The notes beneath the pieces were generated by a model. The model did not search any database, had not been told where the DNA came from, and saw only the letters and a program-made list of their open reading frames with translations. Positions 6,236 to 17,837 of a stretch of 64,000 nt of DNA are shown piece by piece. The stretch is from contig CAMWXP010000003.1 of assembly GCA_947178255.1 (NCBI GenBank), positions 1 to 64,000 on the forward strand, read 5' to 3'. Made by a program: the position numbers and the translations under genes. The stretch comes from an uncultured Clostridia bacterium. Lineage in GTDB: Bacteria; Bacillota; Clostridia; Christensenellales; Pumilibacteraceae. Within the stretch, counting starts at the first letter, position 1; each line of letters begins with the position of its first letter.

Positions 6236-9200
6236 TTATTTCCAAAGTACGATATTGTCGATATTGGCAGTTTCGTTGTTGCAACGTATTTCCACGGTGT
6301 GCTTGCCGTCATCTAAATCTTCGGAAAGGAACACCATTTGCGAACCGTTGCCTTCACCCTTCAACGATACTTTACCCGCGGACTTACCGTCTATAAACAC
6401 TTCCATACCGCCGTACTGTTCCGACTTGTATGAGAATATGGCAAACGCCTTGCCTGTGAACGTAAACTTCATTGTCGCGTTGTCGTTGCCGTTGTAAATG
6501 TGTCCGAAGGTGTAGAAGCCCTGATCAATCGCCCATCTTCCGTCGTACCTGAACATTTCGTTATCCGCCTCGAATACCGTTCCGTTAACAAGCGCGCGGC
6601 GCGTGGCAAAGCCGATTGCCGACGCAACAAAGTAATCGTTTTCGGTTTTGGTTACCGTCAAGGTATAATACCCGAACGTTATATGCTCGCCCAATGCGAC
6701 TTCCAAATCGGCGCCGTTGGCGTGCGTGGCGCCGGTAAACGTTTTGGTAGCCACAATCTTGCCGTCCGGCTTATCGCGGAATTCGAGAGTGAAGTTTTGA
6801 GGCAGTCCCGTCTTGTTTGCACTGTCGTTACGCGCATACACTATAAAGGCGTTTGCGGTAATGGGATTGTCGAGCTGAACGGACAGCCTAAACGGATTAT
6901 CCGCATTCACCGACGTTTCGGGCTTGCCGCTTACGTGCTGTGCACTGTGCGCCGTGGTATTGGGATTGCCGTCGAAAAGATTTTCTATTTTGTACTCCGC
7001 CGACCAATGCAAAAAGTTATGCTCGACTATGCTTTGTTCGACCTCGTGATACTCTACGTCCTCGCTGCGGTACGTATAACGGTAGTCGCGCAGGAAGAAA
7101 TATTCCGAAGTGAAATTGCTGTTGATAATCTCGTACGTGGAACGGTACGCATTGGAATAGCTTACGCTAACGGTTGCCTGAGCGTTTTCTATAACGTTTC
7201 CGTTGCCGTCCACAAGCTGCCCGTCCTCGTTGATAGTGCCTTGCGGCATGGTATACTCGCCGCTGCCCAGTCCGATATATGCGTTTTTGCCGCCGCGGTT
7301 CTCGCATTTAAGCACCGCCTTAAAGTATATCCAGTCGCCCGCCGTGAACGTTTCGTCAAAGTACGTTTCGGGATTGTCAAGATAGAAATTGGCGTGGCTT
7401 GCGTCCGTCTTGATTTTCGCTTTAAGCGTGTAATTGCTGTCGGCGTTTACCGCAACGTACAGCGCGCAGTCCCAACGCCCGCGCAACGCAATGCGGTACT
7501 TGGCGGTTTCGGGTACGTACAGCTTGCCTTTTATTTCGTAATACGTGTTGGCGGGCAAAGCATCGTACGACCAAACCTCGGTATTGCCGTTTTGCGTGGG
7601 GTTAATGTTATCCACTACCTCTTTTTCTTCATAGCCGTCGTAGTCCGATTCAAACGCGGCCGTCGCGCTTTCCGGCAACGTATCTTCCGTAAAGGTATAA
7701 ATGGTGCGCGTCAAAATGTTCTTGTTCATTTCGTGCGACTGCTCGAATTCAAGAACCAAATCAACATCCTCTACGCTGAACGCGCGGTCGTCCTTGGTGA
7801 TGGCAAGCGTGACTACCATCTTGCCCGAACGCAAGTAATTGGATGCAGGCGTGTACGAATACACGTTGTCGCCCTTGTTTGTAAGAGCGCCGTACTGCGG
7901 TGCAACTACCTTTTTGATAGTATAGCTGAATCCGTCGGGAATAACAACACTGCCATGCTGATACATGCCGTTTTCGTTTACGGTGTACTTGCGCATATCC
8001 ACGTCTATGGTTTCGCCAAACTTAATCTTGTACGGCTGCATAGTTGTTATGTACCGTTTTTGATTGTCGTACACATAGCTTCTGCCCGTTTGATACACCG
8101 ACGACACGGGAACGAACATGGGATAGTCTTTTTGCGACTCGGCAAGCGACGAATAATCCGCAGTAGCATATGCACTTATCATTTGCGTGTAGTACGACAT
8201 GTTGTGGTGCGTAACGTTGCCCCAGTTTTGGAAATACGCTAGGTCACGCCCGCCGACGGTCATAAACGCTTCCTGTCCGAAATTGTGCAGCAGCGTTGCG
8301 TACAGCGCAAGACCGTTGGTGGAAGAAATTTCGCCCGTTTTGACGCGGTTAAGCGCCCACGTAGCGCTGGTGTAGCAGTTCCAACCACTCAATCCGCCGC
8401 CGCCGTACGCGCCGATATTGCGCGACCCCGATACTTCGGTAAACAGCGAGTATTCCACAAGCGAAATGGCGTTGTTGGTTACCTCGCCGTCGGCGCCGCC
8501 GCAGCCGTAGCCTTGGAAGTTGTGGTTGTATTCGTGAACGTTACCCCACGACCCCGAACGCACAAACGCGTCGTAGTTGAGCGATCCGTTCATCCAGTCG
8601 GCAGGACAGTTGACCGACATTTGTCCGGGGAATGCAACCGCCGCGCCCGCCGCAACAAACGGGTCGTAAATAAACACTATACCCTGCTTGACGCGCTGTG
8701 TGGATACAAGCGCTATCTTTTCCCAAAGCACCGCGGCCTTGTATATATTGTTGTAGGTAAGCAGTCCTTCGCCGACCGAGCTTCTCGGCCCCGAATGAAG
8801 CACGCCGTTTTCGCGCACCTCCAAATCGAAGTACGGAACGGAAGATTTAAGGTTTTCGGCATAATCCTCGGGCGTGGTGTAACCGAGTATGTAGTGCGCA
8901 TAACGCACGCCGCCCGATATCGTCACCGAAAAAGTAACGTTTTCGTTGTATATGTAAATAGGTCCGCCGTAGAACGAGCCGACGTACGCGGTGTAAACCT
9001 GACGTTCGCTGTCGTACGTGGAGTTGTCGGCGTTTACCACCCAAGTGTTGAGTATGACCGGCATGCGGTTGATATTGCGCGCCGCCCAAATGTTGTTGGC
9101 CTTGTGGTTGTACAGCGCTTGACCGATCATGACCTCTATGCCGCCAGTGGCTTGCATATGCGCCTGGCTAATCTCTATCTTTATTATTTCGCCGGCGGGC

Positions 9201-14000: not shown

Positions 14001-14076
14001 GGGGATTTAGCTCAGTTGGTAGAGCATCTGCTTTGCAAGCAGAGGGTCAGCGGTTCGAGTCCGCTAATCTCCACCA
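14001..14076 (+). tRNA. tRNA-Ala (TGC anticodon)
   Basis: GGGGATTTAGCTCAGTTGGTAGAGCATCTGCTTTGCAAGCAGAGGGTCAGCGGTTCGAGTCCGCTAATCTCCACCA; cloverleaf arms and encoded CCA. Confidence 0.95.
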
Positions 14077-14085
14077 ATATAATAT

Positions 14086-14101
14086 AGGAATGTAGCTCAG
14101 C
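14086..14101 (+). pseudogene. 5' remnant of tRNA-Ile (AGGAATGTAGCTCAGC)
   Basis: 22-nt repeat TAATATAGGAATGTAGCTCAGC at 14080-14101 and 14155-14176; the rest of the cloverleaf is missing from the first copy. Confidence 0.7.
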
Positions 14102-14160
14102 TGTCGGGCAGCGCAATGATACGCTACGCGACCAACACACAAACAACAACATTTTAATAT

Positions 14161-14237
14161 AGGAATGTAGCTCAGCAGGTTAGAGCACCACCCTGATAAG
14201 GTGGGGGTCGGTGGTTCGAGTCCACTCATTCCTACCA
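14161..14237 (+). tRNA. tRNA-Ile (GAT anticodon)
   Basis: AGGAATGTAGCTCAGCAGGTTAGAGCACCACCCTGATAAGGTGGGGGTCGGTGGTTCGAGTCCACTCATTCCTACCA. Confidence 0.95.
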
Positions 14238-14268
14238 CGAAATAGCGCCCTTGCGGCGCTTTTTTCGT
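14233..14268. repeat. 36-bp direct repeat, left copy (tRNA-Ile 3' tail plus terminator)
   Basis: TACCACGAAATAGCGCCCTTGCGGCGCTTTTTTCGT, identical at 15045-15080. Confidence 0.9.
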
Positions 14269-14507
14269 GGTAGGAATGAGTAGCAAGACCATGCGGTGCG
14301 GAGAAAAGCCTATCAAAACATGTACCGCTCGCCCACCGCATGGTTCGCTAGGCGCTTGCGCTGTATAGCCGTACAAACTATTTAAGCAAAAATAATCGTT
14401 AGCTAATACAGAGCAAAAAAAATGGAACGCAAAGCCCGCCCGCGCTGTTCGCGGGCATTCCACTCATTCAACGAAAATAGGACGCATAAGCGTCCTTTTT
14501 TCGTTTA

Positions 14508-14708
14508 TTACTCTACAAATAATTTGCAAATAGGAACGTTCATTGTCTTTGCAATTCTAAAAAGATTAATCATATCAAAATCCTGATTAGTCATTATTTT
14601 ATTAAATGTATAAATGCTTATTTTACATAGCTTACAAAACTTCGTTTTGTTTAAATTGTTAGCTTTTATATAGCTATTGATTAGTGCTGTATTGACCGCA
14701 TTATCCAT
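14508..14708 (-). CDS. Small HTH (XRE-like) regulator
   Basis: 66 aa; NKTKFCKLCKISIYTFNKIMTNQDFDMINLFRIAKTMNVPICKLF. Confidence 0.75.
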   Translation of the reverse strand: MDNAVNTALINSYIKANNLNKTKFCKLCKISIYTFNKIMTNQDFDMINLFRIAKTMNVPICKLFVE

Positions 14709-14743
14709 AATCGCCTCTCAAAGCATAATGATAATTATATTGT

Positions 14744-14789
14744 ACTATTACCGATTGGTAATAGTCAAGTATTTTATTACCATTTGGTA
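14744..14789. promoter_or_regulatory. Two TACC-N4-GGTA operator-like palindromes between divergent XRE genes
   Basis: ACTATTACCGATTGGTAATAGT perfect 9-bp arms at 14744-14765; TACCATTTGGTA at 14778-14789. Confidence 0.7.
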
Positions 14790-14813
14790 TAAAATATTAT
14801 TGAGGTGATAACT

Positions 14814-15017
14814 ATGAACAAATTTGCAGAGAGATTAAAAGAGCTTAGAATTGAAAAAAATCTTTCTCAAAACGAGTTGTCAAAACAAATCGGTATTAGC
14901 GTTGCTTGTATAAACAGATGGGAAAACAATTTACGCATACCGAATATTGATAGCATAATGATTCTCTGCAAATTCTTCGGTTGTACTGCCGATTATTTAA
15001 TTGGATTAGAAGATTAA
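14814..15017 (+). CDS. XRE-family HTH transcriptional regulator
   Basis: MNKFAERLKELRIEKNLSQNELSKQIGISVACINRWENNLRIPNIDSIMILCKFFGCTADYLIGLED. Confidence 0.92.
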   Translation: MNKFAERLKELRIEKNLSQNELSKQIGISVACINRWENNLRIPNIDSIMILCKFFGCTADYLIGLED

Positions 15018-15044
15018 ATGAATTTGTTTTAGGCGATAATGCAT

Positions 15045-15080
15045 TACCACGAAATAGCGCCCTTGCGGCGCTTTTTTCGT
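15045..15080. repeat. 36-bp direct repeat, right copy
   Basis: Identical to 14233-14268. Confidence 0.9.
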
Positions 15081-15164: not shown

Positions 15165-17675
15165 ATGGAAAATAACGTTCAAAAAGACAGTTTGATTGTA
15201 ATAGACGCCAATTCGCTGGTGAACCGTGCGTTCTTTGCCATGCCTGCTATGACCACCACTCGCGGCGAACCCATAGGCGCGGTGTACGGCTTTGCCACAA
15301 TGCTTATAAAGCTTATCGAGCAGTACCGCCCCAAATACGTTGCGGCGGCGTTTGACGTGCACGCCCCCACCTTCCGCCACAAAATGACGCCGCTGTACAA
15401 GGCGACGCGCAAGCCTATGCCGCCCGACCTCAAAGCGCAAATGGGCGTGCTTAAATCCCTGCTTGCCGACATGAACATAAAAATGTTCGAAATGGCAGGC
15501 TACGAGGCGGACGATATTATCGGCACCATTGCGCGGCGCTCGGGCGTATTCACCTACATTCTTACCGGCGACCGCGACAGCCTGCAACTGGTAAACGACA
15601 CCACGCACGCCCTGCTCACCAAAAAAGGCATAACCGAAATACTTGACGTTTCGCCCGACAACGTGGAAGACGTTTTCGGCGTTGCCGCAGACCGCGTGGT
15701 CGACTTTAAGGCGCTTGCCGGCGATTCGTCGGACAACATCCCCGGCGTTGCCGGCATTGGCGAAAAATCGGCTGTCGAACTTATCCGCACGTACGGCTCG
15801 CTGGACGGCGTTTACGCCAACCTCGACGACATAAAAGGCAGCCGCCACGACAAGCTTGCGGCGGGCAAAGACAACGCGCTCCTGTCGTACAAGCTGGCAC
15901 GCATAGACGTAGACGCGCCCGTAGACTTTTCGCTGTCCGATTGCGAACTGACTTTTCCCTTCCCCGCCGCCGCTAAAAACCGCTTTGTCGAGCTGGAATT
16001 TAAGTCGCTTATAAACCGCGTAGACTTGTTTGCGCAAGCGGACGAGAGCGCGCCCGCGCCGACCGCGACCCAAATAAAAACGGTCACGCTTAACAGTCCC
16101 GCCGAACTCGGCGACCTTGTAAACGGCGTGTACCCCGACGGCAAGATGGCGCTGCTGCTCACCCCCGACGGCCTGCATATAGCGTTTGACAACACCGATT
16201 ATTTTGCGCCCATAGCGGACACGCTGATGAGCGTGTTTACGCTGCCGTCGTGCATAGATATACTTAAACAGGCATTGACATCGCGTAAAGTTATTACGTT
16301 CGATTTGAAATCGCTGCTCCACGCCATTGCGCCCGTAATGCCCATCGAGGCGGACGACGTCGCGCTAATGGGATATCTACTCGAATATAGGCTATCGCCC
16401 ACCACCGCCGCCGAGCTGTTCACGCTGTACGACGAATGTTCGGTAGAGCTTGCCGCGCGCGGCGTGACACCGCTGTACCGCGATATAGAGCTGCCGCTAC
16501 TGTACGTGCTGTTCGATATGGAAAGCAAGGGCTTTGCCGTCGACCGCAAGCGGTTGGACGAGATAGACGTTAAGTTTTCGGAGCTTGAGCGCGCCAACGT
16601 TGCGCGTATACGCGAGCTGTGCAACACCGACATAAACCTAAACTCGCCCAAACAGCTTGCCAAATTGTTGTTCGAGGACATGGGCATACCCTATCCCGAC
16701 AAGTCGGCAAAGACGTACTCCACCAAAGCCGAAATACTGCAAAAGCTTTCGGGCGATTACGAAATAGTGGACGAGATATTAAAGTACAGATTTAACTCCA
16801 AGCTGAAATCGACCTTTATCGACGGCGTGCGTAAGGCGCTCAGTCCGAGCGGCAAGGTGCATACGCGGTTTAATCAAACGCTTACCACCACCGGACGGCT
16901 GTCGTCCACCGACCCCAACCTGCAAAACATTCCCACGCGCGTCGAGGAAGGCAAGCTGTTACGCTCCATGTTCGTCGGCTCCAAGGGCAACGTGTTGGTG
17001 GACGCCGATTACAGCCAAATAGAATTGAAGCTGCTCGCCCACTTTTCGGGCGATCCAAAAATGGTGGAAGCATTCCGCAGCGGCGGCGACATTCACGCGT
17101 CCACCGCGGCAGAGGTGTTCGAGGTCACGCCCGAAGAGGTCACGCCGCAAATGCGCCGCGACGCCAAGGCGGTCAACTTCGGCATAGTTTACGGCATAAG
17201 CAATTACGGGCTGAGCCAAAACATACACATCCCGCCGCGCAAAGCTGACGAGTATATAAAGCGGTACTTCGAACGCTTCCCCGCCGTCAAGGCGTATTTG
17301 GACGGGCTTATAGAGGACGCCAAAAAGCATGGCTACGCCGTTACCATGTTCGGACGGCGGCGCACTATCCCCGAGCTCAACTCCGCCAAATTTACAGAAC
17401 GCAAGTTCGGCGAGCGCGTGGCAATGAACACGCCGTTGCAAGGCTCGGCCGCCGACATAATTAAAATCGCAATGGTGCGCGTGCACAAGCGGCTTAGCAA
17501 CATGAAGTCCAATCTTATACTCCAAGTGCACGACGAGCTTATCGTGGACGCCCACCCCGACGAGGTGGAACAGGTAAAGGAAATACTCAAAACCGAAATG
17601 GAAGGCGCAGTGTCTCTTTCCGTGCCGCTGGACGTGAGCATATCGGTAGGCGCTAATTGGATGGAGTGCAAATAA
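15165..17675 (+). CDS. polA: DNA polymerase I (family A)
   Basis: 5' nuclease domain at N-terminus; TTTGRLSSTDPNLQNIPTRVEEGKLLRSMFV, DADYSQIELKLLAHFSGD, LQVHDELIVD. Confidence 0.95.
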   Translation: MENNVQKDSLIVIDANSLVNRAFFAMPAMTTTRGEPIGAVYGFATMLIKLIEQYRPKYVAAAFDVHAPTFRHKMTPLYKATRKPMPPDLKAQMGVLKSLLADMNIKMFEMAGYEADDIIGTIARRSGVFTYILTGDRDSLQLVNDTTHALLTKKGITEILDVSPDNVEDVFGVAADRVVDFKALAGDSSDNIPGVAGIGEKSAVELIRTYGSLDGVYANLDDIKGSRHDKLAAGKDNALLSYKLARIDVDAPVDFSLSDCELTFPFPAAAKNRFVELEFKSLINRVDLFAQADESAPAPTATQIKTVTLNSPAELGDLVNGVYPDGKMALLLTPDGLHIAFDNTDYFAPIADTLMSVFTLPSCIDILKQALTSRKVITFDLKSLLHAIAPVMPIEADDVALMGYLLEYRLSPTTAAELFTLYDECSVELAARGVTPLYRDIELPLLYVLFDMESKGFAVDRKRLDEIDVKFSELERANVARIRELCNTDINLNSPKQLAKLLFEDMGIPYPDKSAKTYSTKAEILQKLSGDYEIVDEILKYRFNSKLKSTFIDGVRKALSPSGKVHTRFNQTLTTTGRLSSTDPNLQNIPTRVEEGKLLRSMFVGSKGNVLVDADYSQIELKLLAHFSGDPKMVEAFRSGGDIHASTAAEVFEVTPEEVTPQMRRDAKAVNFGIVYGISNYGLSQNIHIPPRKADEYIKRYFERFPAVKAYLDGLIEDAKKHGYAVTMFGRRRTIPELNSAKFTERKFGERVAMNTPLQGSAADIIKIAMVRVHKRLSNMKSNLILQVHDELIVDAHPDEVEQVKEILKTEMEGAVSLSVPLDVSISVGANWMECK

Positions 17676-17714: not shown

Positions 17715-17822
17715 AAGGTTGAGATTCCTCGCATTGCTCGGAATGACAAAAGTGGTGTTGCTGGTCACGTGGTAAACAAAACTTCTTTTGTCATCCTGAA
17801 CGCAGTGAAGGATCTCATCCTT
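17715..17822. repeat. Interspersed repeat family A, copy 1 (full inverted-repeat element)
   Basis: AAGGTTGAGATTCCTCGCATTGCTCGGAATGACAAAAG ... CTTTTGTCATCCTGAACGCAGTGAAGGATCTCATCCTT. Confidence 0.85.
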
Positions 17823-17837
17823 ATAATAAAGGTAATT

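Follow-up and report, generated by a model that had tools for sequence, protein, structure and literature searches.

What lies between the tRNA-Ile gene and polA in an uncultured Clostridia bacterium, and how this interval came to be enclosed by two copies of one sequence, is the question that the present locus raises. The window, i.e. the whole stretch of DNA that was analysed (64 000 nt; contig CAMWXP010000003.1, assembly GCA_947178255.1), carries TACCACGAAATAGCGCCCTTGCGGCGCTTTTTTCGT twice, the two copies being identical at 36 of 36 positions and spaced by 812 bp, which is not chance. A first-pass annotation had reported an exact direct repeat at the tRNA-Ile 3' end, and its description proved accurate: bases 1–5 are the last five of the tRNA as delimited by ARAGORN and the remainder is its intrinsic terminator (Table 1). 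When the whole source genome was searched with up to three mismatches, exactly two copies were recovered, and thus the repeat is not a ubiquitous terminator. The same search of 20 genomes of the genus Anaerocaecibacter (Clostridia, Pumilibacteraceae; mostly metagenome assemblies) found it besides the source genome once in G009, once in G013 with two mismatches, and nowhere else. Other parts of the earlier description stood less well. The interval had been called AT-rich, which is correct for 14500–14999, where GC drops to 0.28, but not for its first ∼240 bp (14269–14504), where a structured element lies together with the terminator belonging to it. What had been noted as looser similarity after each repeat copy (ATGCGGTGCGG) is really the start of the P2 helix of that element. 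A structured, tRNA-matched element of ∼200 nt (14268–14469), directly behind the tRNA-Ile terminator, had been missed.

Table 1. Features of the tRNA-Ile to polA interval and its flanks (positions are those of the window)
Feature	Position	Strand	Basis or remark
Host tRNA-Ile (GAT)	14161-14237	+	ARAGORN; 3' end TCCACTCATTCCTACCA = X
First copy of 36-bp repeat (final 5 nt of tRNA-Ile, then terminator)	14233-14268	+	
X', TGGTAGGAATGAGT, reverse complement of tRNA-Ile 3' end including CCA	14268-14281	+	inverted repeat
Helix P2, ACCATGCGGTG (14288-14298) with CACCGCATGGT (14334-14344)	14288-14344	+	covariation, fold
GGTTCGCTA joint and helix P3, AGGCGCTTGCGC (14350-14361) with CGCAAAGCCC (14428-14437), long type A loop	14342-14437	+	covariation; model R2 match 14280-14460
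Hairpin P4	14438-14456	+	covariation, fold
X'', TCCACTCATTC, direct copy of tRNA-Ile 3' end	14459-14469	+	
Second terminator, behind element	14479-14504	+	
XRE(−), 66 aa, HTH-like regulator	14508-14708	−	weak PHROG repressor match
Two operators TTACCNNTTGGTA, divergent promoter region	14748-14760, 14777-14789	no strand	
XRE(+), HTH_3 regulator	14814-15017	+	start at this ATG gives 67 aa, at upstream GTG (14805) 70 aa
Cassette end motif M, diverged copy TGTTTTAGGCGATAATGCAT	15025-15044	+	7 bp after XRE(+) stop
Second copy of 36-bp repeat (older tRNA end with terminator, displaced)	15045-15080	+	beside polA
polA, flanking gene	15166-17675	+	

The history of the junction can be read from the relatives, among which the distance from tRNA-Ile to polA is not conserved. 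In G007 it is 118 bp, with one terminator and no cassette; elsewhere it measures 328 bp (G009), 339 bp (G019), 927 bp (source genome), 1468 bp (G015) and 3340 bp (G001), and in other relatives other genes lie between tRNA-Ile and polA. With the uninterrupted junction of G007 and the different fillings of the remaining genomes, the earlier proposal of an insertion at the tRNA end, marked by the repeat, is supported, both of the checks named with it having turned out in its favour. In G009 the identical 36 bp are found beside polA, preceded by a different non-coding filler, and the tRNA has a different terminator; because the same copy stands there behind another filler, the polA-side copy is most simply interpreted as an older tRNA end with its terminator, which would have been pushed downstream. 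An integrase is absent from the window's interval, where the two XRE genes are the only genes, and neither an integrase nor a phage gene was seen in the tRNA-Ile interval of 15 genomes by ORF reading, with a domain search for some of the ORFs. The tRNA-Ala/tRNA-Ile block is itself oriented toward polA in seven genomes (G000, G001, G007, G009, G010, G015 and G019), whereas eight have it in the opposite orientation (G002, G003, G004, G005, G014, G016, G017 and G018); as its orientation differs between genomes, it has inverted, perhaps repeatedly. Upstream of tRNA-Ile (window 14088–14146; L010, L012, L030, L034 and L036) there are tandem 5' fragments or pseudo-copies (AGGAATGTAGCTCAGC...), some relatives possess entire tRNA-like copies that bear an insert of ∼24 nt at the anticodon (CTG-CTACGAAGC...-ATAAGG), and tRNA-Thr is preceded by a similar 5' fragment (L040, about 8992–9050). 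Spurious antisense ORFs are often annotated over tRNA genes, and one of 138 aa (GLEPPTPTLSG...; 14047–14463, minus strand) extends across the tRNAs and the element.

The genes within the window's interval had been described as two small XRE-type regulators, which holds for XRE(+), a match to HTH_3 (E = 1.8e-16), but less clearly for XRE(−), which has no match in Pfam and a weak repressor match in PHROG (E = 6e-4). Between them we found two exact TTACCNNTTGGTA sites, the shared TACC-N4-GGTA operators reported previously, with no other exact match in the window. The test for a divergent pair thus returned an HTH_3 protein, two operators between the genes and, for XRE(−), the weak repressor match alone; the two proteins probably bind both operators and would control their own divergent promoter. 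In comparison with G015, XRE(+) has a dN/dS of about 0.07 and XRE(−) one of about 0.29. Both genes are under purifying selection, and the pair is therefore functional cargo and not debris. Furthermore, it is located at tRNA-Ile in G000 and G015 (96 % at the amino acid level) and as a compact unit at tRNA-Met in G017 (88 %), so that it has changed sites. Of the two interpretations initially offered, that of a cassette is supported for the regulator pair, whereas a minimal remnant of an integrase-type element is not supported: the intervals of the relatives inspected hold other small cargo genes with a common end motif, and no integrase was seen in them.

Across the genus, cassette fillings end in a common motif, M (TTCGTTTTAGGTTNGNTATGCTC), placed directly before CTACCA and the terminator. 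We identified M at 10 sites in 8 genomes, with none for the reversed pattern and none in nine genomes outside the genus; a clear M occupies the position in the G015 ortholog that is equivalent to the diverged copy in the window. In four cassettes for which the distance was measured, 4–14 bp separate the stop codon of the cargo ORF from the following M and, at M sites with a tRNA present, that tRNA is tRNA-Ile or tRNA-Met, both of which end in CTACCA. Besides the XRE pair, domain searches identified as cargo a chromate transporter and a protein with AAA_19/UvrD plus PDDEXK_3; reading by eye added a regulator resembling TetR, a zinc-ribbon protein and further small unknowns. No recombinase was seen in cis at the cassettes in the relatives' intervals inspected; six tyrosine recombinases are present in the source genome. 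A ∼370-aa Xer-like recombinase was considered as a dedicated enzyme and rejected, as most of the genus carries it, the genomes devoid of the element among them, without correlation; it is a candidate at most. Additionally, a gene-less palindrome filler (AAACCC.AAACGAAT...ATGAAGCGCCGC...) was observed at Ile and Met sites (L004 in G009, Ile; L274 in G001, Met; L008 in G014, Ile), which ends in M in G009 and G001 and the first hairpin of which resembles the reverse complement of M.

The structured element, which we term the tRNA-tail element, follows a constant layout of X, CCA, terminator, X', P2, GTTCGCTA, P3, hairpin P4, NNTC and X'', in which X'' is a direct copy of X from about T60. Copies behind tRNA-Ile, tRNA-Thr(CGT) and tRNA-Tyr have a P3 loop of ∼68 nt (type A), and in type B this loop is short. 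For type B, 97.2 % of cells pair and double changes occur in 15 of 24 pairs, with none of the shuffles attaining this pairing percentage or the covariation score; the values for type A are 99.1 % and 10 of 25 pairs. Sliding the partners by one to three columns lowered pairing to 28–48 %. P2, P3 and P4 thus covary beyond shuffled and slid controls (P1 was left out of this test), and helix variants across copies, such as CTTGCGC/GCGCAAAG and CTCGGCG/CGCCGAAG, lend further support to the pairing. P1, between X' and X'', is weaker: X' is complementary to the entire tRNA end and, at positions that distinguish X from X'', agrees with X 77 times versus 5, a count biased by the placement of X' through its match to X. 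The window's element folds into P1–P4 with P1 closed (z = −3.6), and the unpaired stretches GTTCGCTA and AAAGAA are conserved. It is not a known Rfam RNA, there being no covariance-model match among 4227 families, and only the tRNA exceeded its gathering score. An extra domain of ∼150 nt (GTAACTCGCGATA...CTTGCAAGCAAG...TATTGACTGCTA) is inserted between P2 and P3 in L264/L265 (tRNA-Glu; G004, G009), L093 (G014) and L138 (G000:C82).

In terms of distribution, model R1 detects 13 copies in the source genome and copies in 17 of the 20 genus genomes, leaving three with none, and in 0 of 21 other genomes of the set; the tally with model R2 is identical (both models derive from copies picked by a common motif, and loci were chosen by model or pattern matches). 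Outside the genus the element was found in one other genome of the family (G135), and an order-wide sample contained it in 3 of 200 genomes, all of them Pumilibacteraceae. Searching 84 980 genomes for the exact core pattern returned the genus plus scattered matches outside; those in Chloroflexi, Actinomycetota, Paraburkholderia, others and one viral contig were dismissed as chance, having no significant R1 support where tested. Within the genus the element follows tRNA genes of 18 anticodons and, in the source genome, starts ∼53–70 nt behind 9 of 39 tRNA genes, about a quarter, on the same strand, an association that cannot be chance. Core similarity is 0.749 within genomes across tRNAs, 0.726 for the same tRNA across genomes and 0.711 for neither (permutation, P = 0.001 by genome and 0.12 by tRNA), and tandem arrays exist, with three 267-bp-spaced units in G010 and three units at tRNA-Leu in G017. 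This similarity by genome, along with the arrays, suggests within-genome copying or conversion of cores with the tags staying local, which in turn would speak for a non-autonomous element and against an RNA gene of purely vertical descent. A precise pair of empty and filled sites for the core was not found, tRNA-Glu in relatives displaying presence, variants and a remnant; what had seemed a clean empty site at this tRNA is just a remnant in G002. Separately, a dispersed repeat of ∼45 bp (GGATGAGATTCTTCGCTTCGCTCAGAATGAC; L134, around 1724–1771) recurs many times per genome in several members of the genus, and similar text is found at 17720–17830 of the window.

The tags of the tRNA-tail element match the tRNA that it follows. 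With tRNAs of other families in the set as reference, the match of the 3' tag to its own tRNA end ranks within the top 5 % for 51 of the 55 elements, nearly always first, and that of the 5' tag for 30 of the 55, a set that includes near relatives and tandem copies and does not amount to 55 independent events. Mean longest matches are 10.3 nt to the own tRNA versus 4.4 nt to others for the 3' tag, and 8.1 versus 4.5 nt for the 5' tag. X'' always begins at the same tRNA position, and X' starts at the exact point where the T-run of the terminator pairs back; X' is present without the core in G007 and G016, and at tRNA-Val of the source genome there is a near-perfect long palindrome (z = −12). The alternative that X' copies the tRNA 5' end directly, and not the 3' end in inverted form, was rejected, as X' runs through TGG, the complement of CCA, and through the complement of the T-stem (TGGTAGGAATGAGT; for Val, TGGTGGGCAATACA). 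In G135, which belongs to another genus of the family, an element with tRNA-Arg-type tags lies directly behind tRNA-Thr(CGT) (L293, 1372–1660); either this is a transferred copy that would have kept the tags of its donor, or a tRNA-Arg may have been deleted. Because of this copy, tags may be able to travel with the element.

Our answer to the initial question is that the interval is probably a small insertion, a cassette, at the 3' end of tRNA-Ile and belongs to a two-layer system of the genus in which cassettes accompany the tRNA-tail element. The cassette sits between the CTACCA of the tRNA and a displaced older CTACCA with its terminator, with M after the last cargo gene, and the tRNA stays intact because the new copy brings the same end. 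We infer that a recombinase with its gene at another locus acts site-specifically at CTACCA, and that cassettes were gained by insertion rather than lost. The likeliest reading of the tRNA-tail element is a non-autonomous, putatively mobile element that resides at tRNA 3' ends: the tRNA 3' end would be duplicated on its arrival (X''), a fold-back copy of that end (X') would be carried along, and the folded single strand may be what is recognized or propagated. These structured units at the 3' ends of many different tRNA genes, with direct and inverted copies of the 3' end of the host tRNA and adjoining integron-like cassettes that would need no integrase in cis, may constitute a new class of element, a proposal that we make tentatively.

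Rather unlikely, in our estimation, is that the tRNA-tail element is instead a functional structured RNA, co-transcribed with the tRNA, vertically inherited, lost in some species and immobile, in which P1 would copy the acceptor/T stack and, for example, control read-through or tRNA 3' processing. Such an RNA would agree with the strong covariation of the helices, the conserved unpaired GTTCGCTA and AAAGAA, the fixed position on the same strand behind tRNAs, the orthologous copies at one tRNA (tRNA-Glu) in several species and the closed P1 of the window's element. In disagreement with it, however, cores are alike by genome more than by tRNA, X' follows the tRNA and not X'' (with the placement bias given above), a terminator separates tRNA and element, and three genomes of the genus lack any copy. 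It seems improbable that the tags are by-products of mutation with neither function nor mobility, template switching at the terminator hairpin yielding X' as a palindrome and slippage yielding X''. This would leave unexplained the ∼100-nt covarying core common to many tRNAs, the absence of that core from most of the family and order, and the constant tRNA position at which X'' starts, even though the beginning of X' at the pair-back point and long palindromes such as that of tRNA-Val point to such a process. Hairpins are known to arise and to be maintained through template switching (PMC8794818), which could account for X' and some of the covariation, but not for the core or X''. More improbable still is a phage-like or integrase-type origin, in which the interval would be the decayed remains of such an element and the XRE pair what is left of its immunity region. 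The direct repeat at the tRNA end and the divergent Cro/cI-like pair with common operators would suit this origin; it is contradicted by the 15 genomes in which ORF reading, with some domain searches, revealed no integrase or phage gene, by purifying selection on both XRE genes, and by the pair forming a compact unit at a second tRNA in G017.

Turning to known systems, the literature searched (mostly outside subscription journals) yielded no description of tRNA-linked structured repeats, tRNA-gene cassettes or integrase-less cassettes, nor of short structured elements with both ends matching the preceding tRNA. We found no counterpart of the tRNA-matched element there or in Rfam, and its status as a class rests on mobility or on its being an RNA: if mobile, it poses the question of how one core acquires tRNA-specific tags in both orientations, and if the copies are RNAs, they would form a tRNA-matched non-coding RNA class. 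REP/BIME and MITE-type repeats are likewise short, protein-less, structured, dispersed, similar within a genome and tandem, yet the element differs from them in residing at tRNA 3' ends and in that its direct and its inverted tags both follow the host tRNA, and no transposase was identified as its partner. GOLLD and ROOL RNAs are also structured, have no known function and often lie near tRNA genes (PMC12286853), but are much larger, occur mainly in phages and prophages and are not known for ends matched to a host tRNA, and our element matches no Rfam family. As for the cassettes, tRNA ends are classic landing sites of mobile DNA. Islands and prophages targeted to tRNAs share with the present locus a direct repeat with the tRNA 3' end, a tRNA restored by the inserted DNA and an older end displaced downstream; unlike them, the unit described here spans hundreds of bases, has no integrase, has a repeat that runs through the terminator and includes a structured element. 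Integron cassettes (attC, IntI) resemble it in being compact one- or two-gene units with a common recombination-like motif just behind the last stop, in their tandem arrays and varied cargo, and in a long hairpin at the junction. They differ in that the cassettes here are anchored in the 3' end of CTACCA-ending tRNAs, which serve as sites in place of attI, with no integrase gene in cis, and M, read by eye, has no obvious match to the attC boxes GTTRRRY and RYYYAAC. The cassette layer is predicted to work like an integron array or a tRNA-targeted island, yet without an integrase in cis, and would represent a site of integron-like gene capture in Clostridia for which there is one cultured host, Anaerocaecibacter muris.
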